Shown here: in pieces, positions 12,001 to 61,799 of the stretch
How the letters are laid out: each line of letters starts with the position of its first letter
How positions within the stretch are numbered: the first letter of the stretch is position 1
From: Strigamia acuminata
Lineage: Eukaryota; Arthropoda; Chilopoda; Geophilomorpha; Linotaeniidae
Assembly: GCA_949358305.1 (NCBI GenBank)
Contig: OX442314.1
Coordinates: 66,472,429 to 66,536,428 of the forward strand
Direction: 5' to 3'
Length of the DNA stretch: 64,000 bases
The notes under the pieces: model-generated
Database searches by the model: none
The model's input: only the letters and a program-made list of their open reading frames with translations
Told to the model about the DNA's origin: nothing
Translations under genes and position numbers: made by a program

Positions 12001-15000
12001 CTACTAAGGTTTAAACACTATTTCTGAACATTCAGAGACATTGGTCTTGTGGTGTTTGTGCTAAGTCAACTGTGATGAGATCAAAAGTCTATTCTCCCAA
12101 ATCATTGGTTGGATGTTTCTAAAACTTACATTGGAGCCTTCTACTAAGGTTTAAACACTATTTCTGAACATTCAGAGACATTGGTCTTGTGGTGTTTGTG
12201 CTAAGTCAACTGTGATGAGATCAAAAGTCTATTCTCCCAAATCATTGGTTGGATGTTTCTAAAACTTACATTGGAGCCTTCTACTAAGGTTTAAACACTA
12301 TTTCTGAACATTCAGAGACATTGGTCTTGTGGTGTTTGTGCTAAGTCAACTGTGATGAGATCAAAAGTCTATTCTCCCAAATCATTGGTTGGATGTTTCT
12401 AAAACTTACATTGGAGCCTTCTACTAAGGTTTAAACACTATTTCTGAACATTCAGAGACATTAGTCTTGTGGTGTTTGTGCTAAGTCAACTGTGATGAGA
12501 TCAAAAGTCTATTCTCCTAAATCATTGGTTGAATGTTTCTAAAACTTACATTGGAGCCTTCTACTAAGGTTTAAACACTATTTCTGAACATTCAGAGACA
12601 TTGGTCTTGTGGTGTTTGTGCTAAGTCAACTGTGATGAGATCAAAAGTCTATTCTTCCAAATCATTGGTTGGATGTTTCTAAAACTTACATTGGAGCCTT
12701 CTACTAAGGTTTAAACACTATTTCTGAACATTCAGAGACATTGGTCTTGTGGTGTTTGTGCTAAGTCAACTGTGATGAGATCAAAAGTCTATTCTCCCAA
12801 ATCATTGGTTGGATGTTTCTAAAACTTACATTGGAGCCTTCTACTAAGGTTTAAACACTATTTCTGAACATTCAGAGACATTAGTCTTGTGGTGTTTGTG
12901 CTAAGTCAACTGTGATGAGATCAAAAGTCTATTCTCCTAAATCATTGGTTGAATGTTTCTAAAACTTACATTGGAGCCTTCTACTAAGGTTTAAACACTA
13001 TTTCTGAACATTCAGAGACATTGGACTTGTGGTGTTTGTGCTAAGTCAACTGTGATGAGATCAAAAGTCTATTCTCCCAAATCATTGGTTGGATGTTTCT
13101 AAAACTTACATTGGAGCCTTCTACTAAGGTTTAAACACTATTTCTGAACATTCAGAGACATTGGTCTTGTGGTGTTTGTGCTAAGTCAACTGTGATGAGA
13201 TCAAAAGTCTATTCTTCCAAATCATTGGTTGGATGTTTCTAAAACTTACATTGGAGCCTTCTACTAAGGTTTAAACACTATTTCTGAACATTCAGAGACA
13301 TTGGTCTTGTGGTGTTTGTGCTAAGTCAACTGTGATGAGATCAAAAGTCTATTCTCCCAAATCATTGGTTGGATGTTTCTAAAACTTACATTGGAGCCTT
13401 CTACTAAGGTTTAAACACTATTTCTGAACATTCAGAGACATTAGTCTTGTGGTGTTTGTGCTAAGTCAACTGTGATGAGATCAAAAGTCTATTCTCCTAA
13501 ATCATTGGTTGAATGTTTCTAAAACTTACATTGGAGCCTTCTACTAAGGTTTAAACACTATTTCTGAACATTCAGAGACATTGGTCTTGTGGTGTTTGTG
13601 CTAAGTCAACTGTGATGAGATCAAAAGTCTATTCTTCCAAATCATTGGTTGGATGTTTCTAAAACTTACATTGGAGCCTTCTACTAAGGTTTAAACACTA
13701 TTTCTGAACATTCAGAGACATTGGTCTTGTGGTGTTTGTGCTAAGTCAACTGTGATGAGATCAAAAGTCTATTCTCCCAAATCATTGGTTGGATGTTTCT
13801 AAAACTTACATTGGAGCCTTCTACTAAGGTTTAAACACTATTTCTGAACATTCAGAGACATTAGTCTTGTGGTGTTTGTGCTAAGTCAACTGTGATGAGA
13901 TCAAAAGTCTATTCTCCTAAATCATTGGTTGAATGTTTCTAAAACTTACATTGGAGCCTTCTACTAAGGTTTAAACACTATTTCTGAACATTCAGAGACA
14001 TTGGTCTTGTGGTGTTTGTGCTAAGTCAACTGCGATGTGAAATGAACTGAAATTTTTTTTTCAAAATTTATTGCTTGGGTGTTGCTAAAACTTATATTGA
14101 AGGCTTCTACTAAGGTTTAAACACTATTTCTGAACATTCAGAGACATTGGACTTGTGGTGTTTGTGCTAAGTCAACTGTGATGAGATCAAAAGTCTATTC
14201 TCCCAAATCATTGGTTGGATGTTTCTAAAACTTACATTGGAGCCTTCTACTAAGGTTTAAACACTATTTCTGAACATTCAGAGACATTGGTCTTGTGGTG
14301 TTTGTGCTAAGTCAACTGTGATGAGATCAAAAGTCTATTCTCCCAAATCATTGGTTGGATGTTTCTAAAACTTACATTGGAGCCTTCTACTAAGGTGTAA
14401 ACACTATTTCTGAACGTTCAGAGACATTGGTCTTGTGGTGTTTGTGCTAAGTCAACTGTGATGAGATCAAAAGTCTATTCTCCCAAATCATTGGTTGGAT
14501 GTTTCTAAAACTTACATTGGAACCTTCTACTAAGGTTTAAACACTATTTCTGAACATTCAGAGACATTGGTGTTTGTGCTAAGTCAACTGCGATCTGAAA
14601 TGAGCTCAAAATTTTTTTTTCAAAATTTATTGCTTGGGTGTTGCTAAAACTTATATTGAAGGCTTCTACTAAGGTTTAAACACTATTTCTGAACATTCAG
14701 AGACATTGGACTTGTGGTGTTTGTGCTAAGTCAACTGTGATGAGATCAAAAGTCTATTCTCCCAAATCATTGGTTGGATGTTTCTAAAACTTACATTGGA
14801 GCCTTCTACTAAGGTTTAAACACTATTTCTGAACATTCAGAGACATTGGTCTTGTGGTGTTTGTGCTAAGTCAACTGTGATGAGATCAAAAGTCTATTCT
14901 CCCAAATCATTGGTTGGATGTTTCTAAAACTTACATTGGAGCCTTCTACTAAGGTTTAAACACTATTTCTGAACATTCAGAGACATTGGTCTTGTGGTGT

Positions 15001-16836
15001 TTGTGCTAAGTCAACTGTGATGAGATCAAAAGTCTATTCTCCCAAATCATTGGTTGGATGTTTCTAAAACTTACATTGGAGCCTTCTACTAAGGTTTAAA
15101 CACTATTTCTGAACATTCAGAGACATTAGTCTTGTGGTGTTTGTGCTAAGTCAACTGTGATGAGATCAAAAGTCTATTCTCCTAAATCATTGGTTGAATG
15201 TTTCTAAAACTTACATTGGAGCCTTCTACTAAGGTTTAAACACTATTTCTGAACATTCAGAGACATTGGTCTTGTGGTGTTTGTGCTAAGTCAACTGTGA
15301 TGAGATCAAAAGTCTATTCTTCCAAATCATTGGTTGGATGTTTCTAAAACTTACATTGGAGCCTTCTACTAAGGTTTAAACACTATTTCTGAACATTCAG
15401 AGACATTGGTCTTGTGGTGTTTGTGCTAAGTCAACTGTGATGAGATCAAAAGTCTATTCTCCCAAATCATTGGTTGGATGTTTCTAAAACTTACATTGGA
15501 GCCTTCTACTAAGGTTTAAACACTATTTCTGAACATTCAGAGACATTAGTCTTGTGGTGTTTGTGCTAAGTCAACTGTGATGAGATCAAAAGTCTATTCT
15601 CCTAAATCATTGGTTGAATGTTTCTAAAACTTACATTGGAGCCTTCTACTAAGGTTTAAACACTATTTCTGAACATTCAGAGACATTGGTCTTGTGGTGT
15701 TTGTGCTAAGTCAACTGCGATGTGAAATGAACTGAAATTTTTTTTTCAAAATTTATTGCTTGGGTGTTGCTAAAACTTATATTGAAGGCTTCTACTAAGG
15801 TTTAAACACTATTTCTGAACATTCAGAGACATTGGACTTGTGGTGTTTGTGCTAAGTCAACTGTGATGAGATCAAAAGTCTATTCTCCCAAATCATTGGT
15901 TGGATGTTTCTAAAACTTACATTGGAGCCTTCTACTAAGGTTTAAACACTATTTCTGAACATTCAGAGACATTGGTCTTGTGGTGTTTGTGCTAAGTCAA
16001 CTGTGATGAGATCAAAAGTCTATTCTCCCAAATCATTGGTTGGATGTTTCTAAAACTTACATTGGAGCCTTCTACTAAGGTGTAAACACTATTTCTGAAC
16101 GTTCAGAGACATTGGTCTTGTGGTGTTTGTGCTAAGTCAACTGTGATGAGATCAAAAGTCTATTCTCCCAAATCATTGGTTGGATGTTTCTAAAACTTAC
16201 ATTGGAACCTTCTACTAAGGTTTAAACACTATTTCTGAACATTCAGAGACATTGGTGTTTGTGCTAAGTCAACTGCGATCTGAAATGAGCTCAAAATTTT
16301 TTTTTCAAAATTTATTGCTTGGGTGTTGCTAAAACTTATATTGAAGGCTTCTACTAAGGTTTAAACACTTTTTCTGAACATTCAGAGACATTGGACTTGT
16401 GGTGTTTGTGCTAATTTAACTGTGATGAGATCAAAAGTCTATTCTGCCAAATCATTGCTTGATGTTGCTAAAACTTACATTTAAGGCTTCTACAAAGGTT
16501 TAAACACTATTTATAAACATTCAGACACATTGGACTTGTGGTGTTTGTGCTAAGTTAACTGTGATGAGATCAAAAGTCTATTCTCCCAAATCATTGGTTG
16601 GATGTTTCTAAAACTTACATTGGAGCCTTCTACTAAGGTTTAAACACTATTTCTGAACATTCAGAGACATTGGTCTTGTGGTGTTTGTGCTAAGTCAACT
16701 GTGATGAGATCAAAAGTCTATTCTCCCAAATCATTGGTTGGATGTTTCTAAAACTTACATTGGAGCCTTCTACTAAGGTTTAAACACTATTTCTGAACAT
16801 TCAGAGACATTGGTGTTTGTGCTAAGTGAACTGCGA
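1..16836. repeat. Satellite array, ~140-bp monomers with higher-order repeats
   Basis: This is an unbroken head-to-tail array. The landmark attggttgga/attgcttggg recurs at 181, 321, 460 and 600, giving a period of 139-140 bp and about 120 monomers. Several monomer classes exist: the common one, a class with a run of 8-10 T after 'gatctgaaatgagctcaaaa' or 'gatgtgaaatgaactgaaa', and a diverged class with 'tttataaacattcagacac'. The classes recur in fixed order: T-tract monomers at 987 and 2679, and at about 1695 and 3385, are about 1.69 kb apart, which is 12 monomers. A rare gaacgttcag variant at 3768, 6150, 8252, 14414 and 16100 marks further blocks 2.38 kb and 1.69 kb apart. No ORF of note is present. 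The array starts before the window and is cut by an LTR element at 16837. Confidence 0.97.
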
Positions 16837-17510
16837 TGTTTCTAGCAGTGCTTGAAGACCGTGTTGCACTCTAGAAGACATTTGAAAATGGTTAAAATAA
16901 ATAACCCTATTTACCAGAACTTGTGAAGAATCCCAAAGAAGAAAGTCCATTACAGGAAAAAACCTTGATGTGAAACCTGTAAAGTGAGCTGTGAACATGT
17001 TGGGACAATTCAATACTATTGTGCTCAAGTTAGCACACAAAAACGAATTTATTGTAAAGTTAAAATCTATCAAAACATTACACATAAGAGAGGAGAAAAT
17101 CAACGTTACTTAGGACTAGGAAAAACATATAACAAGTCAGAGTAGTTGCTGCGCAACCTACAACAATTAGAGCAGCGGCTCTTAGCAACGAGTGGCAACA
17201 ATCACTCGCAAGAGGCGAATTGTCCCTCTAGTGACAAAATGATAAAGCGTATACAAGAAAATACACAGTTTCGAGTATAAAATCATTACAAAAGGCACAA
17301 AAACGTAATAAATTAAGACAAAGTGTTTCAAATAAACGAACTAACTTAGGAACTAACAGCAGCAACTCTTTGGACGAATCCAAGCAGTAAAACTCCAAAG
17401 AATCAAAGAAAAGATACAAGATTACCTTAAAAAAGACAGCTTAAATCAGGTAATTCACCACTCCCACGTCACAAACTACACGAAATTCATTTAACCTTTA
17501 GCCAAAACTT
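16837..17510 (-). repeat. Left (3') LTR of outer element, shared part
   Basis: It is identical in length to 22003-22676, with no indels seen. The similarity ends at ccaaaactt: here the sequence runs on as aagctgcac, whereas the other copy is interrupted at exactly this point by the inner retrotransposon. The left LTR therefore preserves the empty target site. Its true inner end must lie beyond 17510. Confidence 0.85.
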
Positions 17511-20500
17511 AAGCTGCACTACTAACTAAACACAAACTTAAATTAATGATTAATCAAAGCAAATCCGCTATTGCGATAGCAAAAATCCATGTTGCGCGTG
17601 CTCGCAACAGCGTTGCCGGCCAAAGAAGAAGGAAAGGCAAGGTAGAAAACCGTTGAAGGAATTCCCCATCAAAACCAAGAGAACGGGAAGAAAAAGTATC
17701 GAAGCCAAGCTCGACTTTGTAAAAGTCGCGAAGGCAAAACCATAGACACGAAGGCAAAAAGCTGTAACCTAAACATCCGAGACCTCTAGGAGCGTCCCAG
17801 GGTCAAGGGCATCGAAGTCGGATCGCGGCCCAAAAACACCGGAGAGACGAAAGAAAAGAGAAGTTGCGTTGCGGCGCACTTCCTATCAACAACCAACAAA
17901 AACTAAAAGAAACTTAAAACACGAGAGAAGAAAGAGAAGGGCCGTGCCACGATGACCTACTCCAGACACCGAGGGGCTACGACGTCGCCAATAGACACGT
18001 GGCACACACACAAAATACCTTTAGAAAATCCGACTGAACGGGTTTTCTAACCGGAACAACGTGAGAACATTGCGGGAGCTTCTCAGAAAGCTCAGTCTGT
18101 CAACCCGTAGACAGACGCTTAAACTAATGAAAGCTAAAAACAGGAAAACGAGAATCCTCGTCAAAGAGGAAGGAAAACTGTCACAAAAGCTCTTGAACGA
18201 GCATGGTCTCGCAAGGAACAAGACATGCATGAAGACTAGAAGAAACTTGGAACGCAAAAAGGAACAAACTTGAGACACGGCAGGCTTCACCGCCTCGTTG
18301 TTCTCGAGCCAGCGCTCAAGTGGCAACGTACCACGGAAACCTCCGTCCGCCTGCAAACACAAGCTGCGAACTCAAACTTATTAAACTATTAAAGACGACC
18401 CTTTTCTAGAAAACAAGAAAAATGCAAAATAAGGGAATGAATGCGTTGACCCAGACCTATCGTCTGACCAACCACCCAGCATTCGTACGAAGAACTAGAA
18501 AATGCCGTCAAGACCTAGGCACCACTCTTTCGCAAAGAGTGACTAACTAACCACTTACCCAAAGCCATGACCACCTAGCTAACAGGATCACGCCAGAAGA
18601 AGGAAAAAGAGAACGAAAAAGCATGAAGCTCAGGCAATGCGAACCATTCGCAGCAACTGCCACGCAAAGGCGTTGACCGCACCCTGACTTGACATGAACC
18701 CACGAAACCGCTAAGAGCAGAGAATAAAGAAAAAAGGAAAGACTTGGTCAGATGACTGTGCAAGCCAACTGCGACCTCTTGTTCACAGTGACAATGAAAC
18801 ACGCGCACGCTGACCCATCGACCACAACTTTATCTAACTAATAAGAGAAAACGGTTCAATTATCTAAAAAAAACGAGCACGTTCCGTGCAAATAAATACC
18901 GGCAAAAACGTCAATATTATCACTAAAGCTATTGGCCAAGTATGGCCTCACAAGGGAAACTAACAAACTGGAACTGTGAAAACCAGCAAGAATTCCAAAA
19001 CACTAAACTTTCTGCTTTTTTTTCGAAGAGGGAATAAGTCCGTACCCAAATAATCAATCCATTTCCTCCCCACGAGAAAAGAAAGGAAAGGGGCCTGCTT
19101 CTTTTTGAAGATCAACAGGTGTCAAACGATACTGAAAAACGTTGGAAGCAGTGCAACTGCAACCAAATGAAGCGAAGCTACACTTCCTGCACGAAAACTA
19201 ATCACGTCGTTGAAAAGAAATTAAAACCGGTGGCTATCTTTCAACCGAGCTGCGCTTTACGAATGCGCCTTGAACAAGGAGGTACCCGATGGACTGCACG
19301 TCCGCACTCGGGCCACCGTGTAGCCTGTTGTGAGCAGACTACCACGAAGACTGAAACTTCTTTAACCGAGAGGGAAATAGAAACTAGATCTAGTTAAAAC
19401 CCCATGCTCCAATAAGGAGGCTACTGTATGAACGCTTGGCCCACCCCGAGTCGGAACCAATATGATTGAACCGAGAAACGAGAGAAGAGGGGGGGTTGCT
19501 TGACGTCCCTGATTGCGAGGGGCGTCACACATAGACATGAGCAGAAGGACTTGCCAGTTGCCAACCGCATTACTGGAACCGGTAAGCAACTGCAAGTCGA
19601 CAATTGACTCGCTCACATACCCATTGACCACATCGTCGATCAGCAAGCCGACTTCCGGAAATCGCCACTCTACTGAAAGCACGTGTTGTCCAATGACTAA
19701 AACGTGTTGCCGAGTGCCGGCGCCAAGAAGGCCGCACACACACGTCCTTCGACCCATCATAGAGTGGGCTCCCTGCCTAGTGCATGTCTGCCTCACTGCA
19801 GAGCTAGGGATGAAAGACTAACAACAACTACTCAGTCGCGGGAAGCAAACGTAGAAATAGGGGCCGCCAAAAGGCGCAGGGACTTTGTCTCGGACACGAC
19901 ATCTAACAGAGTATGGCAGTGCAAACCTGCCCTCTGTAACACATCGAATGGCAGTCTTTGCTGTGCACAGCAAAAACGACCATCCAAAACAAGTACCTAT
20001 ACCCTAACGCCACGCTAGCTAGCCACAACCCAAAAATAGCAAGCAAGCTATTTCCTAAACGAATAAGCTAAAATGTCCAAATTCTAAAGTTGCCCCAAAG
20101 AACTAGAATAACTAAACTCCCTTTTTTAAACGATAAAAGGCGAGACTAATCACTAATGAAGACTCATGAAACGCTACGGACGTTTCCACGAAGAGAAAGC
20201 GAAAATGCAGAACGTACATCACCAGCGGTAGACACTGGGTGCAGCGGTCAACAACAGAAACTGGACTTGCCCAGTGGGCGGTGCGGATCGGCTGCTCTAA
20301 ACTTCCAGCACCGACAGAAGTCACACGCCTATCTAATTCCAAACCCACTTGCAAACAAGTCGTATAACAATCTAAACTAACAGAGATTGACGGACAGGTA
20401 AGAACCGACTGACCTCGCGGGCCAGCGCTCGTTCAGCTAGACATGAGCAGCAAAAGAACGAATCACGTTCTATAAACAAGAAACGTTCTACAAACACACG

Positions 20501-21429
20501 AATACAAACGGGTGTGCCCTCTCCCGAAGCGGAGAGATGACCGACACCAGAGCTCACGAGGAAACTCGTGCGGCACACGAAAAACATTGGACACAAAACG
20601 TAAAGACCAGAGGTCGTCCACATTCCAAACACAAGAGCAGGCTCACATGACGAGAAGAAGCTAGATCACTCAAGGACCCCCCTGACCGCCGCTCTGAAAA
20701 GCGGGAAGGACGAGAAGAGGAAACCGGTTGGTCCACAATAGCTAGTAATTTAACTTTAGCGTAGGGCAGAAAGCTAAAAGCGGGAGTTAATCGACCCCGA
20801 GCTGACGACTAACTGGCCAACACCACTAAAAATTTGCAAATGTGACGACGCTCCTGTCATTAAGCCTAAAAATTTCTTAAAAAGACTACACGTAAAAGGG
20901 AAAAACCCCGGGAGATCAAAGAACTCAAATCCAAAGAGCTAATAACGCGATAAATTGGCAAACTCGTTTAAGAAAGGGAAACTTGGAAACAAGTAGCTTT
21001 GCTTCTCACATATTAAACCAAAAATTCTTACCAAAAACGTGAGTGAACAAAGAATAAAGCTATTAACCAGCACAGGCATAAATGCGATCAGAAAATTGGA
21101 CTCCCTTATTAAATCCAGACACAGAAAGCCAATAAATTCGTAAAAGCCATTCTTTGGCACTTAAACAAGGAACTGAGGACGATAACAACATAACCGTAAG
21201 CGAGGAGGGCAAAAACAGAAGTTTAGGGTTTAAGGGGACTCCAAACAAGGCGCAAATAGGCGTGGAAACTAGCTACACTTGCACAACGACGTATGCAGAA
21301 GCATGAAACAGAACTAACGCCCCAAAACTCCCAAAACAACCACAATTTCCCCCAAAAACCTTAAAATTAACATTTGATGAAAACGAGAAAAATATAATCG
21401 ACAAAAAAACGAAATCTTCATTGCCGACT
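17511..21429. other. Interior of outer LTR element, no recognised gene
   Basis: About 3.9 kb with many short ORFs on both strands, the longest 144 aa on the minus strand (19362-19796) and about 113 aa (18021-18362). None shows zinc knuckles, a DTG/DSG protease motif, RT or integrase residues. The plus strand is rich in A between 17.5 and 18.9 kb. I see nothing here that I can support as a gene. Confidence 0.5.
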
Positions 21430-21477
21430 CTAGTACATTGCGTTGTGTATAACTGGCGGCCGACTGACGCTTGAAGA

Positions 21478-21873
21478 GTGACTCTTCCAAACTCGGTGAC
21501 CATTCTGTGTGCGCTGACGGCACGAATCTTTCGGCGGGACTGTCCGGTACAACTGAGAGAACTCGCTCTGCTGCTGAAGAAACAACTCGACTGGAATCTT
21601 GACCGCGTCGCTTGTGAGACGGCGCACGTCTGTGTGGACACAGCCTCGTACTGTCCAACGAACTGGGCACACGAAATCCTGGAAAATCTTGCCGAAACTC
21701 TCTCCATCGACGATCCCGAAGTGGTCGCTGCATTCCGCCATACGACGCACTCGTACTGGGCGAATCTGAGACGAATTTCGCCATCCCGAGCAGCAATTCT
21801 CGATTTGACCGACAGCCACACGCATTGCGCTTGTGAATGCGCTGGCTTCACACGATGCGTCTGTCGTCACTAA
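21478..21873 (+). CDS. Unrecognised ORF beside the outer element's PBS (uncertain)
   Basis: The open frame of about 131 codons begins only at a non-ATG (GTG-like) codon after an in-frame TGA. The predicted protein is helix-friendly, with leucine-rich stretches, about nine cysteines (several near the C terminus, CACECAGFTRC) and the segment RELALLLKKQLDWNL, and the codons look gene-like. The frame is antisense to the retroelement and could be a captured host exon. The minus strand is also open here, as a 279-codon frame that runs into the LTR (21430-22269), so the true coding strand is undecided. I recognise no family. Confidence 0.25.
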   Translation: MTLPNSVTILCALTARIFRRDCPVQLRELALLLKKQLDWNLDRVACETAHVCVDTASYCPTNWAHEILENLAETLSIDDPEVVAAFRHTTHSYWANLRRISPSRAAILDLTDSHTHCACECAGFTRCVCRH

Positions 21874-21984
21874 GCGCTGGCAGCCTCCACTGCAATTACC
21901 GATCTTGTTTCCGAAAATGGCGGCGATGTCACCCATTTTCGAACTCACGGCAACCTGACGACACTTGGCTAGCATCCTGGTCAA

Positions 21985-21998
21985 GCAAAACGGCACCA
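21985..21998 (-). promoter_or_regulatory. Primer-binding site of outer LTR element
   Basis: On the minus strand the LTR ends …GAAACA, followed by the spacer AAGT and then TGGTGCCGTTTTGC. Starting with TGG, the complement of a tRNA CCA 3' end, within a few bases of the LTR is diagnostic of a PBS. The priming tRNA was not identified. Confidence 0.6.
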
Positions 21999-22002
21999 AC
22001 TT

Positions 22003-22676
22003 TGTTTCTAGCAGTGCTTGAAGACCGTGTTGCACTCTAGAAGACATTTGAAAATGGTTAAAATAAATAACCCTATTTACCAGAACTTGTGAAGAATCCC
22101 AAAGAAGAAAGTCCATTACAGGAAAAAACCTTGATGTGAAACCTGTAAAGTGAGCTGTGAACATGTTGGGACAATTCAATACTATTGTGCTCAAGTTAGC
22201 ACACAAAAACGAATTTATTGTAAAGTTAAAATCTATCAAAACATTACACATAAGAGAGGAGAAAATCAACGTTACTTAGGACTAGGAAAAACATATAACA
22301 AGTCAGAGTAGTTGCTGCGCAACCTACAACAATTAGAGCAGCGGCTCTTAGCAACGAGTGGCAACAATCACTCGCAAGAGGCGAATTGTCCCTCTAGTGA
22401 CAAAATGATAAAGCGTATACAAGAAAATACACAGTTTCGAGTATAAAATCATTACAAAAGGCACAAAAACGTAATAAATTAAGACAAAGTGTTTCAAATA
22501 AACGAACTAACTTAGGAACTAACAGCAGCAACTCTTTGGACGAATCCAAGCAGTAAAACTCCAAAGAATCAAAGAAAAGATACAAGATTACCTTAAAAAA
22601 GACAGCTTAAATCAGGTAATTCACCACTCCCACGTCACAAACTACACGAAATTCATTTAACCTTTAGCCAAAACTT
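22003..22676 (-). repeat. Right (5') LTR of outer element, interrupted
   Basis: Second copy of 16837-17510. It stops at 22676, where the TGTTTCTGG end of the inner retrotransposon begins. The rest of this LTR should lie beyond the inner element, but the sequence there (28420 on) is unrelated, so the remainder has been lost. Confidence 0.85.
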
Positions 22677-23453
22677 TGTTTCTGGCAAGGTCGCAGGCGA
22701 CAACCAGGCCAGAAGGAGGGGCGGCAATACTTGACTGCTGCTTGGCTAAAATTGATACACAGAAGTTGGCCAAAGACTTGAAGAAATGCAAACACTGGAC
22801 TTGAACTTGCTGCTTCACATGATGATCTGCCACTGGTGAGTTCAAGGAGGAGGAAGGAGGATTTTTCTACTCACTGCACATTGCTTTCTGGTTGTATAGA
22901 GAAATGAGACTTGGAGAGAAATAAAAAGCAACCATTTTATTCTCTAAATTCTTAACAACACTACTACAATTGAATCACGAGGATATTACAAAGAAGTCAC
23001 ACTTTAACAATAATAAGAAACAACAAGTGTAACTATCTCCACATTGTATAAGGACACTTGCACTTAAAGTTACAGAGGTCTCTAAGTGCTTGTAAAGAGA
23101 AATAAGTACTGCTGGCACAACAAAACTACCGTAGAAGTTAATAGTTGAAAACACATAAGCCTAACAGCAAGTATTTGACATTAAATGCAAAAGTATACAT
23201 TAACAACAGTCTCTAAACACAATGCTCATTGAGAACTAAATTATTCACTCTAAAACACACTGAACAACTCATAAAATAGAGAAAAGAATAAGTAAAGACA
23301 TTTTAGACCAATGAGCTGGCAACTTTACAGTAAGTGCAGAAGTTAAGTTATAAATCAACACAGATAAATCTCAAACTTAACACTTTTACATTGCATAATA
23401 ATTAAGTGATTAATTATTAATCAGAACCCACAAAAACTCTTTGGGATTAAACA
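22677..23453 (-). repeat. 3' LTR of the TK-bearing element (777 bp)
   Basis: It runs from TGTTTCTGGC to GGGATTAAACA on the plus strand, and the end is set by the adjacent pyrimidine tract at 23454. Its first 522 bp match the 5' LTR copy. The last 255 bp have no counterpart because the 5' LTR is truncated. Confidence 0.85.
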
Positions 23454-23468
23454 TTTTCTCCTCTCTTT
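23454..23468 (-). promoter_or_regulatory. Polypurine tract
   Basis: The plus strand reads ttttctcctctcttt, that is AAAGAGAGGAGAAAA on the element strand, immediately before the 3' LTR starting TGTTTAATCCC. Position and composition fit the plus-strand primer of LTR retroelements. Confidence 0.75.
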
Positions 23469-24068
23469 ACAGATACAAGTAGACCACTCCCACAGTAATG
23501 GCCGACAATGTAAACAGAGATCATTTGCAGGAGGATAAAAAGGCTTGAAATTAGCTCACTAGACAGGCTACACACAATCTAAGTTAACAAAACGCTTAAT
23601 TGGTTAGTAATATACAGAAAACAAACAGAAATTGATTGAAACAGCTTAAAACTGATAATAACATACATTTCTCATTCTAGTACACTTTAGCTGTCTGAGA
23701 GCATCACTACACTTTGTCACTACATTGACAGTAGTGGACTGGAAACAGGAAAACACTTGAAAACATCAAAACATGCATAACACAGGTAAACAAGATAGAA
23801 AATAAATTCTAAGTGGAAAAATAACTAATGTAAAACTCTTTTCTTCCCAGATTTATCCGGTCAGATCAACCAGTACTGAGAAATTCACTCAAACTAACTC
23901 AAAGAAGACTTATATTCAGATAAGTGCCTAATTAAATTCCCAATCTAAGATAAATATTAAAAACCCTTTTTAATAATTCCAGATGACTAATTTTTAAGAC
24001 GTTTAGCAACTTTCCTTTATGTTGCTAGCAACATAGATTGCCGGCGAAAAGAAAGTGCGAACAACCCA
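23469..24068 (-). other. Untranslated 3' region of the TK-bearing element
   Basis: 600 bp of AT-rich sequence between the TK-domain stop codon and the polypurine tract. RT and integrase would lie here in an intact element, but no ORF above 60 codons and no polymerase motif is present. Confidence 0.7.
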
Positions 24069-27000
24069 TCATTTAGTTTGATTACTTCTGGTCTTTGATG
24101 ATAATATTTGGGAGACCTCTTTCACCTTTTTGTATTTCACTCTGGATGGCAAGATTCTTTGACGGATCAAATATGGTATCCACGGAGGTATTCTTCGGTT
24201 GACAATCATACAACTAAGTCGAATAATTCCGTTGATGATTTTCCTTTTTGTCTCTACTGACTCCATGGGCTTTGAGAAACATACTCGACAGGTTGGTTTG
24301 TATTTGTCGATCCCTCCTATCACCTTGACTCTGGTTTCGTGCGAAATTCGTCTTGAAAATTCAGCTTTATCTCCGCAAAAATAACATTTTGCTTGTAGTT
24401 TCACAACAGACTCGGCTAGTGGAACTAACTTGGATATCTGATCAAATGGCTTCCTCTTGAAGTCGACGTCTAATGCGGCGACTATTACCTTTTTCTTTTG
24501 CTCAGCCATTTCATTTGAAAAAGTAAAAATGTCGGGAAAAAACTGTCCTTCATCAATTCCGATTGTCTTCATTAATTTCGTTTTTTCCACAGCATTGGTT
24601 AGGCTACTGGTCGCGATTGCTTCTCGTCGATGACCATCGTGGGTCACGACTTCGGATTTACTGTAACGTTCGTCATTGGAGTGCTTAATGAGCAAGGACG
24701 ACGTCTTCTCTTCTTTTTCTAAGATCTTCAATAACTTGGTCGTTTTCCCGGCATACATTGGACCAAGGATAAGGTGAATTCCTCTTTGATTGTTCGATAA
24801 GACATTTTTCTTTTTCCAGAAATTGAAAATCAATTCTCCGGTCCATCTCAAGATTGCACACAATTTGGGTAAACTGGGCACTTGGTTTGCTTTCTTTCTC
24901 AGTGACTCCGACTGATTTCGCCCTCGTAATTCCGGCTTCATGTCCGAGCTTGGAGTTCTGTTGGCCAATCCTCCATCCTTGAACGACTTTTTCGTTTTTT
25001 GGAGGGTGGTATCCAGTTCCTCTTTCTCCAGACCACTGGAGAGGCTCGCGGCAAAACAAGAAGGTGTGACGTCTGTCTGTTTATTCACACCGGGTTCGCC
25101 ATTCATGTCGGACGGTGATTTCGGAATTAACTGGACTATTTTGTTTTCGTCATTTTCAGGTTGATTTGAGATCACTTCTTCTTTGGACTCGACCGCCATG
25201 CAAGAAATGTTGCACGCTGCCATGTTTTCTTCAAGCGGGTTGTTTGGTCTCAGTCGACCGTTTAGAATCCACCCAAAAATTGTCTCCATTAATCCCAACT
25301 CGTCGTTGATTTTTCGGCTTCCACCTTGACAAATCTTCCACCATGCGTTGCTTCCTAATAAGATGTCAATGTCTTCCGATTCTGACGGATGTATCTCAGC
25401 CATCTCAAGTCCGAGTGATTGGACTTGCTTTATGGCTTCTGCTCCAATTATCCCTTTGACTTTCGGGAGCGTGTCGGTTTCTAATGCAAGGATTGATGTC
25501 TTTTCCGTTCCGTGTCTTGATTGCAGTTCGAATCTAAAGACATCATGTGTCGTCGGAACTGGCTTTTTGTTGAGCAGACACTGTGTCATCGTGTGTAGTG
25601 TCTCGATCTTTTGCATCCGGAATTTATTTACTAGTCTCTTCGTGACGTAGGAGCGATGACTTCCTGGATCTAGTAATCCGCGGACGGGGTACATGTCTCC
25701 ATTTTTCTTCACAAAAAGAGCAGTGAAGACCATCAGTTGAATCTCCACCGACTCGGTAAGCGATACATTAGTAGACACGTTTTCTTCTTTTGGTGTAATC
25801 GCTTTTTCTTTGTTGTTTTTGTTGCAGATCGATGTGTGATGTCTTCCACCACACAAGCGACAACAAAACTTCACGGTACATTCTTTGGCTGTGTGGTTAT
25901 ATCTCAAGCAGTTGAAACAAAGTCGTTTCTTCTTCACTATTTTGATCCTCGCTGGTACATCGAGATCCGCATCACAATTTGCGTGTGCGTGATCACCATC
26001 ACAATAAGCGCAGGCGGGTTTGCGGTTTGGATTTGACTTGGAATTCATACTCAATTTTCCATTTTCGGAAGTCACGAATGAGGACATGGTTCCAGTTGGT
26101 CTTTCTCTTGTTTCCTTTGAAGTTTTCTCAAATTTTTCTGACTTCTTCAGATGAGCGCGCTTAAGGAGAACGCTTTCTTCCGACAATTCAGCCAGTTGTA
26201 TCTCGGTTGCTACGAAGTCCAGAAAAACGTTAACATCATCAACTTTTCCTTGATGCTTTCGGTAAAAACGTTGGGAGATCTCCGGTGGAAATTTTCTAAG
26301 TAGCTCTGGAATAAGGTACGTTCCAGTAGTGTCAACTGACACAGACAGTTGCGCCATGGTCCGGACAGCAGATGCCAATGACGTGAATAGAGCTTTAAGT
26401 GGCTCGATTGGGTAGAGATCGAAAACGGGTTTCGACTCCCTAATCATCTTTGAAATCGCATTTCTCTGCGTGTTTTCAGATCCGAATAGACTCTCCAATG
26501 TATTTTTCGCTAATGGGTAGGCGTCATCAGTTATTGGGTACGACTTGATTGCGGATTCTGCAGCCCCAGTGCAGCATGATCTCAGATATATAAGCTTTTC
26601 CACGTTCGAAAGCTCCGTGTTCTGATCAACTGCTGATTCGAATAAATTCGCAAAACCTCTATATTCAGTTGCATCGCCACTAAATTTGGCAATGTCGGTT
26701 TTCGGCAATCTCGTGTTTCTCCTAGATGAAGCGGACGTCTGGCTTAAACTGGAATTCTGTCCCGGATGGGAACCAAATTGCCCTGCCATTTTTCCAGACA
26801 CTTTTGCTCTTTGCTTCAATAAATTTACTCTGGTTCTAATGTCTTCAATTCGTTGAAGCCCCGCTAAATAGTCCTCTCTTTTTGACTCGTCTTTAAGAGC
26901 TTTCAATTCGTCGGCGAGATCACTCAATTGCTGGTCAACCGTTATTTGCATGGCTTCCAGCTCTCCTCCGTCTAGAATGTTGACTGAAGATCCCAGCAGA

Positions 27001-27083
27001 TCCTCGGCTCCTTGAGCCTTTGCTTTCCAAATGACCTCCTTTTCCTCGAGATCAGCAGCGGATAATGTAGCCATAATCCTCAC
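24069..27083 (-). CDS. Gag - aspartic protease - thymidine kinase fusion protein (1004 aa)
   Basis: One uninterrupted frame; the start may be Met1 or Met4. Residues 1-125 are charged and helical. Residues about 128-270 match the DUF1759 Gag domain of Bel/Pao elements (KFSGD, then EKLIYLRSCCTGAA). Three zinc knuckles follow from C358 to about residue 424: CX2CX3HX4C, CX2CX4HX4C and another CX2CX3HX4C. A DUF1758-type retropepsin surrounds LLDPGSHRSYV (D472), where DPG replaces the usual DS/TG. A low-complexity linker (about 610-760) leads to a type II thymidine kinase at about 766-950: P-loop GPMYAGKTT (774-782), DEGQFF with the expected catalytic Glu845, CX2C at C900/C903, GGIDKYKPT and CX2C at C932/C935. 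KPF…LVPLAESVVKL is typical of metazoan TK1, which suggests capture of a host gene. Expected activity is ATP-dependent phosphorylation of thymidine, perhaps inside the particle; this is inference. Whether the DPG protease is active is unknown. Confidence 0.93.
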   Translation of the reverse strand: MRIMATLSAADLEEKEVIWKAKAQGAEDLLGSSVNILDGGELEAMQITVDQQLSDLADELKALKDESKREDYLAGLQRIEDIRTRVNLLKQRAKVSGKMAGQFGSHPGQNSSLSQTSASSRRNTRLPKTDIAKFSGDATEYRGFANLFESAVDQNTELSNVEKLIYLRSCCTGAAESAIKSYPITDDAYPLAKNTLESLFGSENTQRNAISKMIRESKPVFDLYPIEPLKALFTSLASAVRTMAQLSVSVDTTGTYLIPELLRKFPPEISQRFYRKHQGKVDDVNVFLDFVATEIQLAELSEESVLLKRAHLKKSEKFEKTSKETRERPTGTMSSFVTSENGKLSMNSKSNPNRKPACAYCDGDHAHANCDADLDVPARIKIVKKKRLCFNCLRYNHTAKECTVKFCCRLCGGRHHTSICNKNNKEKAITPKEENVSTNVSLTESVEIQLMVFTALFVKKNGDMYPVRGLLDPGSHRSYVTKRLVNKFRMQKIETLHTMTQCLLNKKPVPTTHDVFRFELQSRHGTEKTSILALETDTLPKVKGIIGAEAIKQVQSLGLEMAEIHPSESEDIDILLGSNAWWKICQGGSRKINDELGLMETIFGWILNGRLRPNNPLEENMAACNISCMAVESKEEVISNQPENDENKIVQLIPKSPSDMNGEPGVNKQTDVTPSCFAASLSSGLEKEELDTTLQKTKKSFKDGGLANRTPSSDMKPELRGRNQSESLRKKANQVPSLPKLCAILRWTGELIFNFWKKKNVLSNNQRGIHLILGPMYAGKTTKLLKILEKEEKTSSLLIKHSNDERYSKSEVVTHDGHRREAIATSSLTNAVEKTKLMKTIGIDEGQFFPDIFTFSNEMAEQKKKVIVAALDVDFKRKPFDQISKLVPLAESVVKLQAKCYFCGDKAEFSRRISHETRVKVIGGIDKYKPTCRVCFSKPMESVETKRKIINGIIRLSCMIVNRRIPPWIPYLIRQRILPSRVKYKKVKEVSQILSSKTRSNQTK

Positions 27084-27880
27084 CGAGAAATGAAGAATTC
27101 AAGGATCAGTTCAGGATTCAAACTCAACTTAACTGACTAAATTGGTTAACAAGAAATTGTCTAATTCTTTTACACTCTAGGATTTACTGAACACACAAAA
27201 AAACAGGATGGATATCCACAAGCTGTTAACAGGATTGAAACACACGAGATGTTAAAAGGATTGGCAAATTAACCCCCAAAATTCAATAATTAAAGGTAAT
27301 TGACAATTCTCTTATTTTCACAATTGAGTTTCTGACTAGATACTCGTTTTAAATTGGGATACCAACACTAAAGCTTGGTATTATTCACTAATTCACTGGA
27401 TATTCTCTAAATTCCACAAACTGGAATCGAGAATTTTATCAAATGGTTAAGACTTAAACTTCTTCTCCCCCCAACTACACCAGTTTCTAATCAAAAACTC
27501 TTTTTGAAATAATTACAGCAGCAAATTCGGATATTATTCTATTTAAATAATAATTCTTAATAATTATTTCTTCAAATCTTCTTGTAGGATGTACATTGCG
27601 TTGTGTTTGGAATTGATTGTCGTGCAGGATCGCTCGTACTCTCGAAGCCTTGCTTGATCCAAGTTGAAAAACATCTTGACCATCTTGACAATTTGAGAAT
27701 CCAACTTGAAAAACCCACTTTTTTGCCTGTGAAAGGCGGACGAGAGCATACACTTCACTGTAGTGGCACAACTTCAATGGCACTTTACACATAAAAGCTT
27801 TGCACAGGTTGAGAACAAAACCCACTGATGAATTTTGCAGCACACATGAAGGTCCACTGAGATAACTGGAAGAAATCCTT
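27084..27880 (-). other. 5' leader of the TK-bearing element
   Basis: About 0.8 kb between the PBS and the Gag start, AT-rich near the ORF. A 153-codon frame (27487-27948) overlaps the PBS and LTR and resembles nothing known to me. I take the stretch to be untranslated leader, possibly with packaging signals. Confidence 0.5.
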
Positions 27881-27894
27881 GGTTCACGGTACCA
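27881..27894 (-). promoter_or_regulatory. Primer-binding site of the TK-bearing element
   Basis: On the element strand the LTR ends GCCAGAAACA, then ATT, then TGGTACCGTGAACC. It begins with TGG and resembles the TGGTGCCG site of the outer element, as expected for related lineages. Confidence 0.7.
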
Positions 27895-27897
27895 AAT

Positions 27898-28419
27898 TGT
27901 TTCTGGCAAGGTCGCAGGCGACAACCAGGCCAGAAGGAGGGGCGGCAATACTTGACTGCTGCTTGGCTAAAATTGATACACAGAAGTTGGCCAAAGACTT
28001 GAAGAAATGCAAACACTGGACTTGAACTTGCTGCTTCACATGATGATCTGCCACTGGTGAGTTCAAGGAGGAGGAAGGAGGATTTTTCTACTCACTGCAC
28101 ATTGCTTTCTGGTTGTATAGAGAAATGAGACTTGGAGAGAAATAAAAAGCAACCATTTTATTCTCTAAATTCTTAACAACACTACTACAATTGAATCACG
28201 AGGATATTACAAAGAAGTCACACTTTAACAATAATAAGAAACAACAAGTGTAACTATCTCCACATTGTATAAGGACACTTGCACTTAAAGTTACAGAGGT
28301 CTCTAAGTGCTTGTAAAGAGAAATAAGTACTGCTGGCACAACAAAACTACCGTAGAAGTTAATAGTTGAAAACACATAAGCCTAACAGCAAGTATTTGAC
28401 ATTAAATGCAAAAGTATAC
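27898..28419 (-). repeat. 5' LTR of the TK-bearing element, truncated
   Basis: 522 bp identical by eye to 22677-23198. It ends abruptly at …aaagtatac|ccttttcgcgg, where the 382-bp tandem unit starts. The missing part is the outer 255 bp, which would contain the U3 start and promoter. This copy may therefore lack its own transcription start. Confidence 0.85.
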
Positions 28420-29565
28420 CCTTTTCGCGGATTGGCTTCCGCGAAATCCGCATTTCGGGGGCGACTATTCTGGGGATTCCGGGTGGACCAAACTCTTCCG
28501 GAAAATGTCCGGGGTGGTGTTGGGAGTGTCAATAGACTGTTTTGTGTCAAGGTTGTCAATTTTCATGTGAGTATTGGAAGGTTCATTTCTGCACATTCTC
28601 ATGTATTTTTTTTCACAGGAGCGACAAGGAGCGATGAAGCGGGATCGAGCGAGAGTGGGTAAAATAAACTGGTTTACGTCTCCAATGCGCGTTCAAGATG
28701 GAATACGAACTCGGAATCGACTCCAACACGCGTTCGCGTGACATACGGACGCATTCACGACCCAGATCAAAAAATGATCTCGTATTCGACTCGCTTTCTA
28801 GCCTTTTCGCGGATTGGCTTCCGCGAAATCCGCATTTCGGGGGCGACTATTCTGGGGATTCCGGGTGGACCAAACTCTTCCGGAAAATGTCCGGGGTGGT
28901 GTTGGGAGTGTCAATAGACTGTTTTGTGTCAAGGTTGTCAATTTTCATGTGAGTATTGGAAGGTTCATTTCTGCACATTCTCATGTATTTTTTTTCACAG
29001 GAGCGACAAGGAGCGATGAAGCGGGATCGAGCGAGAGTGGGTAAAATAAACTGGTTTACGTCTCCAATGCGCGTTCAAGATGGAATACGAACTCGGAATC
29101 GACTCCAACACGCGTTCGCGTGACATACGGACGCATTCACGACCCAGATCAAAAAATGATCTCGTATTCGACTCGCTTTCTAGCCTTTTCGCGGATTGGC
29201 TTCCGCGAAATCCGCATTTCGGGGGCGACTATTCTGGGGATTCCGGGTGGACCAAACTCTTCCGGAAAATGTCCGGGGTGGTGTTGGGAGTGTCAATAGA
29301 CTGTTTTGTGTCAAGGTTGTCAATTTTCATGTGAGTATTGGAAGGTTCATTTCTGCACATTCTCATGTATTTTTTTTCACAGGAGCGACAAGGAGCGATG
29401 AAGCGGGATCGAGCGAGAGTGGGTAAAATAAACTGGTTTACGTCTCCAATGCGCGTTCAAGATGGAATACGAACTCGGAATCGACTCCAACACGCGTTCG
29501 CGTGACATACGGACGCATTCACGACCCAGATCAAAAAATGATCTCGTATTCGACTCGCTTTCTAG
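28420..29565 (+). repeat. Three tandem 382-bp units, each with an intron-like segment
   Basis: Units start with ccttttcgcggattgg at 28420, 28802 and 29184 and look identical. Each has an open region of about 145 bp, a consensus donor (tttcatGTGAGTATT), a short intron-like stretch ending ttttttttcacAG, and then GAGCGACAAGGAGCGATGAAG. The open frames read through both sites, so translation does not settle whether this is coding. Further copies lie at about 31815-32180 (diverged) and 60690-60845 (reversed, ending at the donor). I do not recognise the product. It may be a multicopy transcript or a transposon end. Confidence 0.8.
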
Positions 29566-31460
29566 TCGAGTACGAATTTTGCCCTTCTTCAACGCGAAAT
29601 CGTATTCGACTCGTTTTCGAGTCGAATGCGAATTTTGCCCTTCTTCAACGCGAAATCGTATTCGACTCGTTTTCTAGTCGAGTACGAGTTTTGCCCTTCT
29701 TCAACGCGAAATCGTATTCGACTCGTTTTCGAGTCGAATGCGAATTTTGCCCTTCTTCAACGCGAAATCGTATTCGACTCGTTTTCGAGTCGAGTACGAG
29801 TTTTGCCCTTCTTCAACGAGAAATCGTATTCGACTCGTTTTCGAGTCGAGTACGAGTTTTGCCCTTCTTCAACGCGAAATCGTATTCGACTCGTTTTCGA
29901 GTCGAATGCGAATTTTGCCCTTCTTCAACGCGAAATCGTATTCGACTCGTTTTCGAGTCGAGTACGAGTTTTGCCCTTCTTCAACGCGAAATCGTATTCG
30001 ACTCGTTTTCGAGTCGAGTACGAGTTTTGCCCTTCTTCAACGCGAAATCGTATTCGACTCGTTTTCGAGTCGAATGCGAATTCGTATTCGACTCGTTTTC
30101 GAGTCGAATGCGAATTTTGCCCTTCTTCAACGCGAAATCGTATTCGACTCGTTTTCGAGTCGAATGCGAATTCGTATTCGATTCGAATACGATTCGAATT
30201 CGATTCGAATACGAATACGATCAAAATACGAACTCGTAACAACTCGAATACGATGACCCGTTACCGGACTTTGACTCGTACGACTCGTATTCGAGATGTA
30301 TTCGAGATGTATTCGAATCGTATTCGAGTCGCATTCGAGATGGTCGATGATTTCCACTCGCTCATATACGCGTTGTATACGAGCTCGTATTTTGATCGTA
30401 ATCGTAAACGAATCGTTTACAAGTCGTATACAAGTTGTATACGACGTGTATACACCTCGTATACGAACGAAGTTTGGAAAATCCACCGGATACTTACTAC
30501 GACATGAAAACACATAGTAGTCACATACGTCTTATTTGGAAATTGTGTTTTCACAAACTTCGTTCGTATACGAGGTGTATACACGTCGTATACAACTTGT
30601 ATACGACTTGTAAACGATTCGTTTACGATTACGATCAAAATACGAGCTCGTATACAACGCGTATACGAGCGAGTGGAAATCATCGACCATCTCGAATACG
30701 ACTCGAATTCGATTCGTATTCGATTCGAATACGATTCGAATTCGATTCGAATACGAATACGATCGAAATACGAACTCGTAACAACTCGAATACGAATCAA
30801 AGTCCGGGAAACAAAAATCGACCATCTCGTATACGATTCGAAAGCGAATCGAATACGATTTCGCGTTGAAGAAGGGCAAAACTCGTACTCGACTCGAAAA
30901 CGAGTCGAATACGATTTCGCGTTGAAGAAGGGCAAAACTCGTACTCGACTCGAAAACGAGTCGAATACGATTTCGCGTTGAAGAAGGGCAAAATTCGTAC
31001 TCGACTCGAAAACGAGTCGAATACGATTTCGCGTTGAAGAAGGGCAAAACTCGTACTCGACTCGAAAACGAGTCGAATACGATTTCGCGTTGAAGAAGGG
31101 CAAAACTCGTACTCGACTCGAAAACGAGTCGAATACGATTTCGCGTTGAAGAAGGGCAAAATTCGTACTCGACTCGAAAACGAGTCGAATACGATTTCGC
31201 GTTGAAGAAGGACAAAATTCGCATTCGACTCGAAAACGAGTCGAATACGAATTCGCATTCGACTCGAAAACGAGTCGAATACGATTTCGCGTTGAAGAAG
31301 GGCAAAATTCGCATTCGACTCGAAAACGAGTCGAATACGATTTCGCGTTGAAGAAGGGCAAAATTCGTACTCGACTAGAAAGCGAGTCGAATACGATTTC
31401 GCGTTGAAGAAGGGCAAAATTCGTACTCGACTAGAAAGCGAGTCGAATACGATTTCGCGT
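29566..31460. repeat. Large inverted repeat of 56-bp palindromic CGACTCG units
   Basis: The left arm (29566-30475) and right arm (30555-about 31460) are reverse complements around a 79-bp spacer (30476-30554). The outer part of each arm is a tandem array with a 56-bp period (for example 29601 to 29657). Each unit combines gcccttcttcaacgcgaaat with a hairpin CGACTCG-TTTT-CGAGTCG. The inner part is a looser series of short palindromes such as cgtatacg, cgattcg and acgagctcgt. Long open frames on both strands here (up to 314 codons, repeating SYSTRFRVE and FCPSSTRNR) are a consequence of the repeat and not genes. Confidence 0.93.
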
Positions 31461-31814
31461 TGAAAAAGGGAAAAACTCGTACGCGATTCAGTGAAACTAA
31501 ATTTACATGTGCGCGTTGACGCGCGCGATTCGTGTGTTCTACGTGAGTAAATAGAGTGCGCGTCACATATGAATACAAAATGTCGACCATGCGTCGCCAC
31601 GATGCCAGTGGACGAATTCTGCGAATTCGTGCAAACGCAGAAAGTTAAAAATATTCAAATTTGACGCCCACGATGACTCGTTCGTAGTAGACGCCTCCAC
31701 AACTGCTTTTGAAAAGAATTTGATAAATGTTTGGAAATAATATTTAGGATTTTCTTTAATCATATCAGGAAACTGAAAACAGAAATAAAGTTTATACATT
31801 GGAAATTTTTTATC
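31461..31814. other. Unassigned spacer
   Basis: AT-rich sequence between the palindromic array and a diverged copy of the 382-bp unit. It contains a cgcgcgattcgtgtg segment and ends in aaagtttatacattgg. No gene or repeat is recognised. Confidence 0.4.
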
Positions 31815-35486: not shown

Positions 35487-35787
35487 CTTTTCCCAAGCGA
35501 AATCGTATTCGATTCGCTTTCGAATCGTATACGAGATGGTCGATGATTTTTGTTTCCCGGACTTTGATTCGTATTCGAGTTGTTACGAGTTCGTATTTTG
35601 ATCGTATTCGTATTCGAATCGAATTCGAATCGTATTCGAATCGAATACGAATCGAATTCGAGTCGTATTCGAGATGGTCGATGATTTCCACTCGCTCGTA
35701 TACGCGTTGTATACGAGCTCGTATTTTGATCGTAATCGTAAACGAATCGTTTACAAGTCGTATACAAGTTGTATACGACGTGTATAC
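35487..35787. repeat. Detached piece of the palindromic array
   Basis: Reads as the reverse complement of about 30576-30868, including the cgtatacgagatggtcgatga segments. It ends at gtatacccc exactly where the 25-kb duplicated segment begins. Confidence 0.85.
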
Positions 35788-36628
35788 CCCTATGGCGCGC
35801 ATGCGGATTTCGCGGAGTGCGAAAGGGACCCTATATTTAACATTACGGCGGCCTATACCTTGACCCCCTGTTCGCAGTCTCGTGGCGGATTCTGCGGATT
35901 TCACCTATTCGTACAATCCGCACGATCGCGCGTGTTTTATCATTCTTGGCAAACCGTTTTTTGAAAACGCGTTGTAACGCATCCTCAACTTTACAAATCT
36001 CGCTTAGCGCGATCGCGCTATAACGCTTCTTCGTGTCCAACAAAAACAGCCGATTAAAAACGAAACTTCGGGTTTCGCTAAAACGCGATTTTGATATCGG
36101 GAAGGGCACGTGACCACGTGGGTAAAAATAGAATCGAGTTTCGTGAAAACCTAATTTGGAGAAACGGCGTGGTGGTTTTGCGAAATATATCACATGTCAC
36201 GTGATCGGACGTTGGATCTCGTACATAAACGTTCGTGCCTGGTCAAACCAGAGTCTTTAAAAAATATAAATGCATTTCCCGATCATAGGATTAATTTCGC
36301 GCCGTGTGCTCCAGTCATTAATTAGGTTATCTTCGTCGCAACTCGTCATAATAAAATTTTTACAGAAAATCAATCGTTTCGTATTTTATTTTCACTTTCC
36401 GGGAGTCTCGCGTCGTCGTAGTCGACGCGAGTCTCACCGAACGCGTTCTGCGGGTTCGGCGAGCGTTTTCAGATCGGGGCGGACCGTCTCGTATAGTACC
36501 GGGCGCGCCTCCCCAACTGACCGGTCGATGGTTATATAGTTTAAAATTTCCTCGACCGAGTAAACGGTCGATGCTTCAGCGTCCGGTCGATGATGTGGCA
36601 TTTGTGCGCGTTCATCCCGTGTCTCTCA

Positions 36629-36648
36629 GACTGGCCTTCGGGCCGGTC
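36629..36648 (+). other. UUCG-tetraloop hairpin, copy 1
   Basis: GACTGGCC-TTCG-GGCCGGTC: an 8-bp stem with one G-T pair and a C(UUCG)G tetraloop, preceded by ctctcaga and followed by an (AAAT)n run. The copy at 61737 belongs to the duplication. Confidence 0.8.
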
Positions 36649-36652
36649 AAAA

Positions 36653-36691
<39 letters not shown>

Positions 36692-37222
36692 ATTGGCCGT
36701 AAAATTGGGGCAACTGGGGTCGCTGAGCGGCGGCGGTGGCGGCAGCAACGACAGCCCCGACGACTCGCCCCGAAAATAAGTTTCCGCGTCGGCATCCGTT
36801 CGTTCGTTCGTTCGTTTAAACGTGCGCGCGGTCGCGTGCATCCTACTCGTGTCTGACGTGGCGATCGGTACGGAGTAAAAAAAAATCACCCGAAAAAGGA
36901 AAGACGATTAAAATTTTAATTCTCCGGTCGTGGCACCGACTTTGCGGTCCGTGCTTTAACCGATAATTAGGTTATCTTCGTCGTAATTCGTTGGAATAAA
37001 AATTTTATAGAAAATGAGCCGTTTCGTATTTTATTTTCATCTTCCGGGGGTCTCGCGCCGTCGTTGTGGACGGGAGTCTTCCCGAACACGTTCGATGGGT
37101 TTTGCCAACACTTTCAGATCGAACTCGGGACTCGGGCCCGCCGCTCGGTCGAGCGGCGCACAGTACCCGCCGAGCGGCGCGGTATCCGATATAAAAACAC
37201 CCTTGCTTCGCCACGGTCTCAG

Positions 37223-37242
37223 ACTGGCCTTCGGGCCGGTCA
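37223..37242 (+). other. UUCG-tetraloop hairpin, copy 2
   Basis: Same stem and loop as at 36629, preceded by cggtctca and followed by aaaataataaataaataa. Confidence 0.8.
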
Positions 37243-37840: not shown

Positions 37841-37860
37841 GACTGGCCTTCGGGCCGGTC
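37841..37860 (+). other. UUCG-tetraloop hairpin, copy 3
   Basis: Same stem and loop, after ctctctcggtctca and before aaaataataaataaatg. Confidence 0.8.
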
Positions 37861-38876: not shown

Positions 38877-38910
38877 GGGGCAGCTGGCGCCGACAAGCAC
38901 CGGCAGCCCC
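38877..38910 (+). other. 34-nt GGGGC/GCCCC stem-loop
   Basis: Outer stem of 5 bp, one A-A mismatch, inner stem of 8 positions with one A-C mismatch, and a six-base loop cgacaa. It is followed 19 bases later by aaaaataag. Confidence 0.75.
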
Positions 38911-60845: not shown

Positions 60846-60895
60846 GTTTTTAGCGGCGCGCCGACGCGTGCGACACACGCTTCTGGAGTGCTTAA

Positions 60896-61760: not shown

Positions 61761-61799
<39 letters not shown>

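Follow-up and report, generated by a model that had tools for sequence, protein, structure and literature searches.

The 64,000-nucleotide stretch of Strigamia acuminata DNA analysed here, called the window below (C1:66472429-66536428 of an assembly of 237.5 Mb in 157 contigs), carries on its minus strand an open reading frame in which the Gag and protease of a Bel/Pao-type retrotransposon are fused to a thymidine kinase (TK). The frame (24069..27083) extends over 1004 codons without a stop; it opens with GTG, and its first ATG is codon 4 (window 27074-27072). A first-pass annotation had described Gag, three zinc knuckles and a retropepsin in this order, continuing in frame into a complete TK, and both parts of that description stand up to the comparisons below.

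The Gag is recognized by a DUF1759 domain at residues 134-275 (26259..26684, minus strand; Pfam E 1.9e-17), whose score exceeds the curated cut-off and identifies a Gag of the Bel/Pao type. Three CCHC knuckles can be counted by eye in the frame; Pfam lists a single zf-CCHC stretch, which scores under its cut-off (E 0.0069). The protease region (residues 440-625; 25209..25766, minus strand) contains the motif LLDPGSHRS and can be aligned throughout with the proteases of three loci of this genome that hold autonomous Bel/Pao elements (L061-L063), which share DPGSHRS with it; the motif is present in all six proteins aligned. A structure model of this part, with a predicted local distance difference test score (pLDDT) of 65, gave weak matches to retropepsins, the best at E 8.3e-4. 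It is followed by a linker (residues 626-765; 24789..25208, minus strand) that is weakly constrained, as seen in the ratio of nonsynonymous to synonymous substitution (dN/dS).

The TK domain occupies residues 769-936 (24276..24779, minus strand) and matches PF00265 with E 8.3e-54. Its motifs are intact, including the P-loop GPMYAGKTT, DEGQFF, VIGGIDKY, and two CxxC pairs that provide the zinc cysteines. The family match together with the catalytic and zinc motifs places it among the type II (TK1-like) thymidine kinases. Likewise, its closest solved relative is human TK1 (7e-44), which is also matched at E 2.3e-17 by a structure model built for the TK part (pLDDT 69).

Neither the frame nor the pieces of the element scanned gave a Pfam match to reverse transcriptase (RT), RNase H, or integrase. 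The stop codon lies 35 nt from the 3' long terminal repeat (LTR), which therefore leaves no space for any of the three. The first-pass annotation had called the element a retrotransposon; this is right in that it is a repeated LTR element of the Bel/Pao type, but the absence of these three enzymes had been missed. From its coding content and alignments, the element is a derivative of Bel/Pao and not an autonomous member.

Comparison with other copies defined the boundaries of the window copy, which spans 22677..28419 on the minus strand and is truncated within its 5' LTR. The 3' LTR (22677..24033) is complete, with 1,357 bp and TG...CA termini, whereas only the last 522 of the 1,357 bp remain of the 5' LTR (27898..28419). 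As defined from the other copies, the full LTR extends from TGTTGCTAGCAACA to CCAGAAACA. A 523-bp repeat had initially been taken as the LTR and was discarded when the other copies revealed 1,357 bp. The 5' remnant adjoins a 382-bp tandem repeat, and because so little of this LTR is left, the promoter region of the window copy has probably been lost. A probable primer binding site, TGGTACCGTGAACC (27877..27894, minus strand), was read from the sequence and is TGGTGCC in some copies; we take it to resemble the 3' end of tRNA-His. Scanning the whole window for Rfam families and tRNAs returned no matches. Immediately before the 3' LTR lies a junction motif, CTTTTCGCCGGCAATCTA (24034..24051, minus strand), which is similar in the second family of elements described below and at the corresponding place of the three autonomous loci.

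The LTRs occur in pairs throughout the genome. Among the best 40 of 116 LTR candidates, 36 form 18 pairs whose members are 99-100% identical to the window LTR, and 17 of the 18 pairs are spaced 5,218-5,256 bp apart. The remaining pair, on C127, is wider (6,319 bp) because of an insertion inside the TK. With its LTRs 6.3 kb apart, the C127 copy had been considered as a possible autonomous form, but it proved to be a TK copy with an insertion of about 1.07 kb. It is flanked by a 4-bp target duplication and shows one mismatch in 1,358 LTR bases; no clear target duplication was seen at the one other copy inspected (C13:10.27M). The TG...CA termini and short target duplication, the latter seen in one of these two copies, are those of an LTR retrotransposon. 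Eight loci (L001-L008) were compared further: the 523-bp LTR parts are identical in five, and in L001 the remaining 522 bp are identical as well. In L004, the LTR parts differ at two positions and the element continues into a tandem copy, and L002 has a single LTR only.

A search with the full-length frame, in which 46 copies were scored out of 1389 candidates, recovered the same Gag-protease-TK junction in all 46, and 45 of them are free of internal stops. In a separate TK search (best 150 of 204 candidates), 98 matches belong to TK elements and 52 are TKs outside these elements; the full frame is kept in 84 of the 98. The scored copies fall into two families. The window family comprises 54 copies (13 with a frame of 1009 amino acids, 34 with 1013, and seven shorter or interrupted), and the second, or 995, family comprises 44 (32 with 995 amino acids, five with 1002, and seven shorter or otherwise different). 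The one copy of the second family that was read, L049, is 51.5% identical to the window frame over 996 amino acids, TK included, and the LTR matches of this family are paired about 5.2 kb apart. Since a second family of only about 51% identity has the same Gag-protease-TK plan, the fusion predates the split of the two.

These copies bear on two trivial explanations. A chance fusion or an assembly join confined to the window copy has practically no probability left: the window copy does sit among repeats, but nothing else was found in favour of such an accident, and it is contradicted by the 46 full-length copies that share the junction and by the second family, which is built on the same plan. 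The first-pass annotation had asked for further copies and had named a junction present only here, or a TK standing apart in other copies, as grounds for giving up the fusion; instead, the junction recurs genome-wide. The frame is thus a real Bel/Pao Gag-protease-TK fusion. It is also very unlikely that segmental duplication of heterochromatin, and not retrotransposition, made the near-identical copies. The copies are grouped in a few genomic islands, and tandem arrangements such as that at L004 exist, as duplication would predict; however, the LTRs are paired, the 3' flanks differ among the copies read, the C127 copy has its target duplication, and the copies are spread over many contigs.

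Autonomous relatives of the element were found in the same genome. Loci L061, L062, and L063 have open frames of 1781, 1751, and 1783 amino acids and are 34-36% identical to the TK element over residues 7-640. L061, scanned in two pieces, contains Peptidase_A17, Integrase_H2C2, and DUF5641, and its RVT_1 match of 28 bits lies just under the cut-off of 29.6. Past residue 640, only one chance match of 14 residues (E 2.7) connects the TK element with the three loci. The Gag-protease match thus ends at residue 640, where RT follows in the autonomous loci, so that TK occupies the place where RT begins. As a separate observation, the 995-family copy at L049 is followed (positions 5165-6018) by the integrase part of an autonomous 1781-amino acid element, 95.6% identical to L061; one element was therefore probably inserted into the other.

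Autonomous families were located with an integrase piece as the query; the best 147 of 1371 matches were scored and, after the query's own place was dropped, 146 were used. Within 100 kb of one autonomous group lie 55 of 98 TK copies and 1 of the 150 best-scoring Pao pol copies, in a zone that covers about 5.5% of the genome; the sets compared are best-scored subsets and not censuses. The ends of the elements point in the same direction. The best match to the junction motif CTTTTCGCCGGCAATCTA abutting TGTTGC falls 42-49 nt after the pol stop in all three autonomous loci, and in each of them the window-type motif scores above the best of 100 shuffles. The element therefore has the features of a satellite, as it is without RT and integrase and shares its ends, with a weaker motif in the 995 family, and its target zones with an autonomous group. 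The shared junction and islands fit a shared RT and integrase, from which we infer mobilization in trans. Our preferred interpretation, which we hold to be probable though well short of assured, is that the element represents an old non-autonomous satellite that would be moved in trans by the co-located autonomous families and whose in-frame TK would supply thymidine triphosphate (dTTP).

Constraint was estimated for each coding region. When the window copy is compared with L050, a copy of the 1013 type, dN/dS comes to 0.04 in Gag, 0.27 in the knuckles and protease, 0.56 in the linker, 0.18 in TK, and 0.83 in the C-terminal tail. In TK, 6 of the 10 changes between the 1009 and 1013 types are silent, an excess at a one-sided p of 0.009. 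In comparison with the 995 family, Gag, protease, and TK have reached saturation at their synonymous sites; dN is 0.39 for Gag, 0.28 for protease, 0.37 for TK, and 0.69 for the linker. Among the eight 1009-type copies (L001-L008), the mean proportion of synonymous differences is 0.0044 in TK and 0.044 in Gag, and this tenfold lower silent diversity implies that the 1009-type copies have probably recombined or undergone gene conversion.

Several observations weigh against a constrained, trans-mobilized Bel/Pao satellite. The protease region matches DUF1758 only with E 0.026, under the Pfam cut-off. The 995-type junction motif exceeds the shuffles in only one of the three autonomous loci, and blastn of the window element against L061-L063 revealed no similarity except short coding matches. 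The co-location could reflect survival in heterochromatin. Moreover, TK shows no sign of constraint among the eight 1009-type copies, where it has few changes (over 28 pairs, 14 are synonymous and 46 are not; ratio 0.90). This last result is also what would be expected if TK were a passenger that entered by template switching and was kept only through its fusion to Gag-protease, either as a folding or assembly module or without any role, its kinase activity being irrelevant. The weak constraint on linker and tail agrees with such a passenger, and maize Bs1 is a known element with pieces of host genes, according to the portion of PMC13317346 consulted. However, both families still have intact TK motifs although they have diverged by about 50%, and the TK dN/dS of 0.18 between the 1009 and 1013 types, significant though based on 10 changes, likewise speaks against it; we consider a passenger unlikely.

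The origin of the TK was approached by comparing the TKs of this genome. In an unrooted tree of eight sequences, the TKs of the two element families share a branch of their own (support 97.4/96), apart from the other TKs here and those of human and Leishmania. At one place, the six TKs that were read in this genome lack 2 or 5 residues present in the human and Leishmania enzymes. The first-pass annotation had proposed a tree with host TK1 and the gene at 47.1 kb of the window; the latter proved not to be a single-copy host gene. The 47.1-kb TK is an uninterrupted frame of 185 amino acids (window 47097-47654) within a unit (35785-60892) that is repeated at intervals of about 25.1 kb; the segments 35785-38891 and 60893-64000 agree at 99.9%, and the copies of this TK in the genome lie in mosaic surroundings. 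Full-length copies at 99-100% identity account for 55 of the best 150 scored matches, and its identity to the element TK is 49%. For both reasons, it was rejected as a single-copy host TK1 or a direct donor.

Some of the other TK lineages are found beside nucleotide-metabolism genes. At five collinear places (C3:1.80-1.88M, C5:11.23-11.29M, C5:11.72-11.78M, C13:1.13-1.33M, and C13:7.70-7.71M), a TK frame without interruption is linked to a dUTPase fragment, each time in the same order and orientation, and four of the places also have a thymidylate kinase. These places are perhaps remnants of large DNA viruses or an amplified block. Two further TK-containing frames on C130, of 1118 and 1999 amino acids, were dismissed as fusions, as the listed frames are of low complexity and none looks pol-like by eye. 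Because the 47.1-kb TK is repeated and further TK lineages stand beside dUTPase and thymidylate kinase, the element TK may have come either from a DNA virus or from a gene of the host. The host capture that the first-pass annotation had thought likely is accordingly unproven. A large DNA virus or its genomic remnants, in place of host TK1, would be compatible with the satellite interpretation. dUTPase, TK, and thymidylate kinase are a gene set of large DNA viruses, and the five collinear places fit such a source. However, the element TKs form their own branch outside the dUTPase-linked TK group in the eight-sequence tree, and 3 kb around one such TK holds only one clear gene. A close-peptide search of viral contigs for relatives yielded none. 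A viral donor is a possibility that we regard as doubtful, though it is the least improbable of the alternatives considered.

Under the satellite interpretation, the element has neither RT nor RNase H nor integrase and thus would depend on a helper. Its RNA would be packaged in Gag shells and then copied and integrated in trans by RT and integrase that the co-located autonomous families provide. TK would enter the particle because it is part of each Gag polyprotein, from which the protease may free it. It could then phosphorylate thymidine and make more dTTP available to reverse transcription in settings short of this nucleotide, a role made plausible by the intact motifs and the constraint between subtypes. 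The supply of deoxynucleoside triphosphates can limit reverse transcription. That a lineage does without a polymerase and yet keeps Gag, protease, and TK, with about a hundred copies in two old families, suggests that a supply of nucleotides can outweigh a polymerase of one's own when helpers are present. In this way, it becomes testable which nucleotide is limiting for reverse transcription in the germ cells. More speculatively, and rather improbably on present evidence, the elements might form a multipartite community in which autonomous families give RT and integrase and TK satellites contribute packaged dTTP synthesis that aids the helpers in resting germ cells or embryos; the satellite would then be a lasting partner and not a parasite. 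A non-coding neighbour in the window (16837-22676) and a family of 892-amino acid Gag relatives may be further members.

The neighbour is an LTR element with identical 674-bp repeats and an apparently truncated 5' LTR, in which no recognized coding was detected (10 of 37 frames scanned, none over the Pfam cut-off). The 3' LTR of the neighbour probably begins near 17609, at a junction resembling that of the TK element. This junction scored 32 with the two TK-type motifs, whose shuffles reached at most 31 and 30; the L063-type motif, at 33, stayed below its shuffle maximum of 38. The neighbour and the TK element are both 5'-truncated and lie head to tail (window 22677 and 28419), without visible target duplication. 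Elsewhere in the window there are a long array of a 140-bp satellite (41-16814), three tandem copies of the 382-bp repeat (28420-29565), and TCGA-rich 56-bp repeats in two inverted blocks (29544-31519). The 892-amino acid frames occur at 16 places, with four more places holding shorter frames, at about 44% identity (C13:8668311, C40:185929, C21:166591, and others), and a frame of 897 amino acids with 48% identity occurs at one place (C14:40437). Both kinds are too short for a full pol and are absent from the scored TK matches. As an extra part of the 892-amino acid family, dUTPase, thymidylate kinase, and deoxynucleoside kinase were considered and rejected, since none of the three matched a frame of 892 amino acids.

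Comparing the element TK with human TK1 and other type II TKs, it shares the fold, P-loop, DEGQFF, lasso region, and four zinc cysteines, with 49% identity to human TK1. It differs in being fused behind Gag-protease and in its C-terminal tail, and before the second strand it lacks two residues, as do the TK of the 995 element and that of L051; in two other TKs of this genome, five residues are missing. Literature searches, which covered few subscription journals, found no TK in an LTR retrotransposon, and the word "kinase" occurs 0 times in PMC3118150.

The closest parallels lie in elements with other cargo. In the bdelloid rotifer LTR retrotransposons Juno, Vesta, and TelKA, a dUTPase lies between protease and RT, and dUTPases of retroviruses and basidiomycete elements are also named in the part of PMC5408684 that was available. 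As far as that account goes, they likewise place an enzyme of dTTP supply directly after the protease; however, the enzyme is dUTPase and not TK, RT, RNase H, and integrase follow it, and the elements are not Bel/Pao satellites. Maize Bs1 is an LTR retrotransposon with partial segments of three host genes, according to the sections consulted of PMC13317346 and PMC7264820. On that description, it resembles the TK element in carrying host-type gene cargo, whereas the TK element has a complete-looking enzyme, about a hundred copies, and two families. Plant elements of the BARE-2 type are non-autonomous, bear gag and LTRs, and rely on a related autonomous family. Unlike the TK element, they are without a captured enzyme and are not Bel/Pao. 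In acutely transforming gag-onc retroviruses, a cellular-type gene stands in frame behind gag and replaces pol, and a helper is needed. While these arise anew and are short-lived, the TK lineage is older than the split of its families, has retained its protease, and bears a metabolic enzyme.
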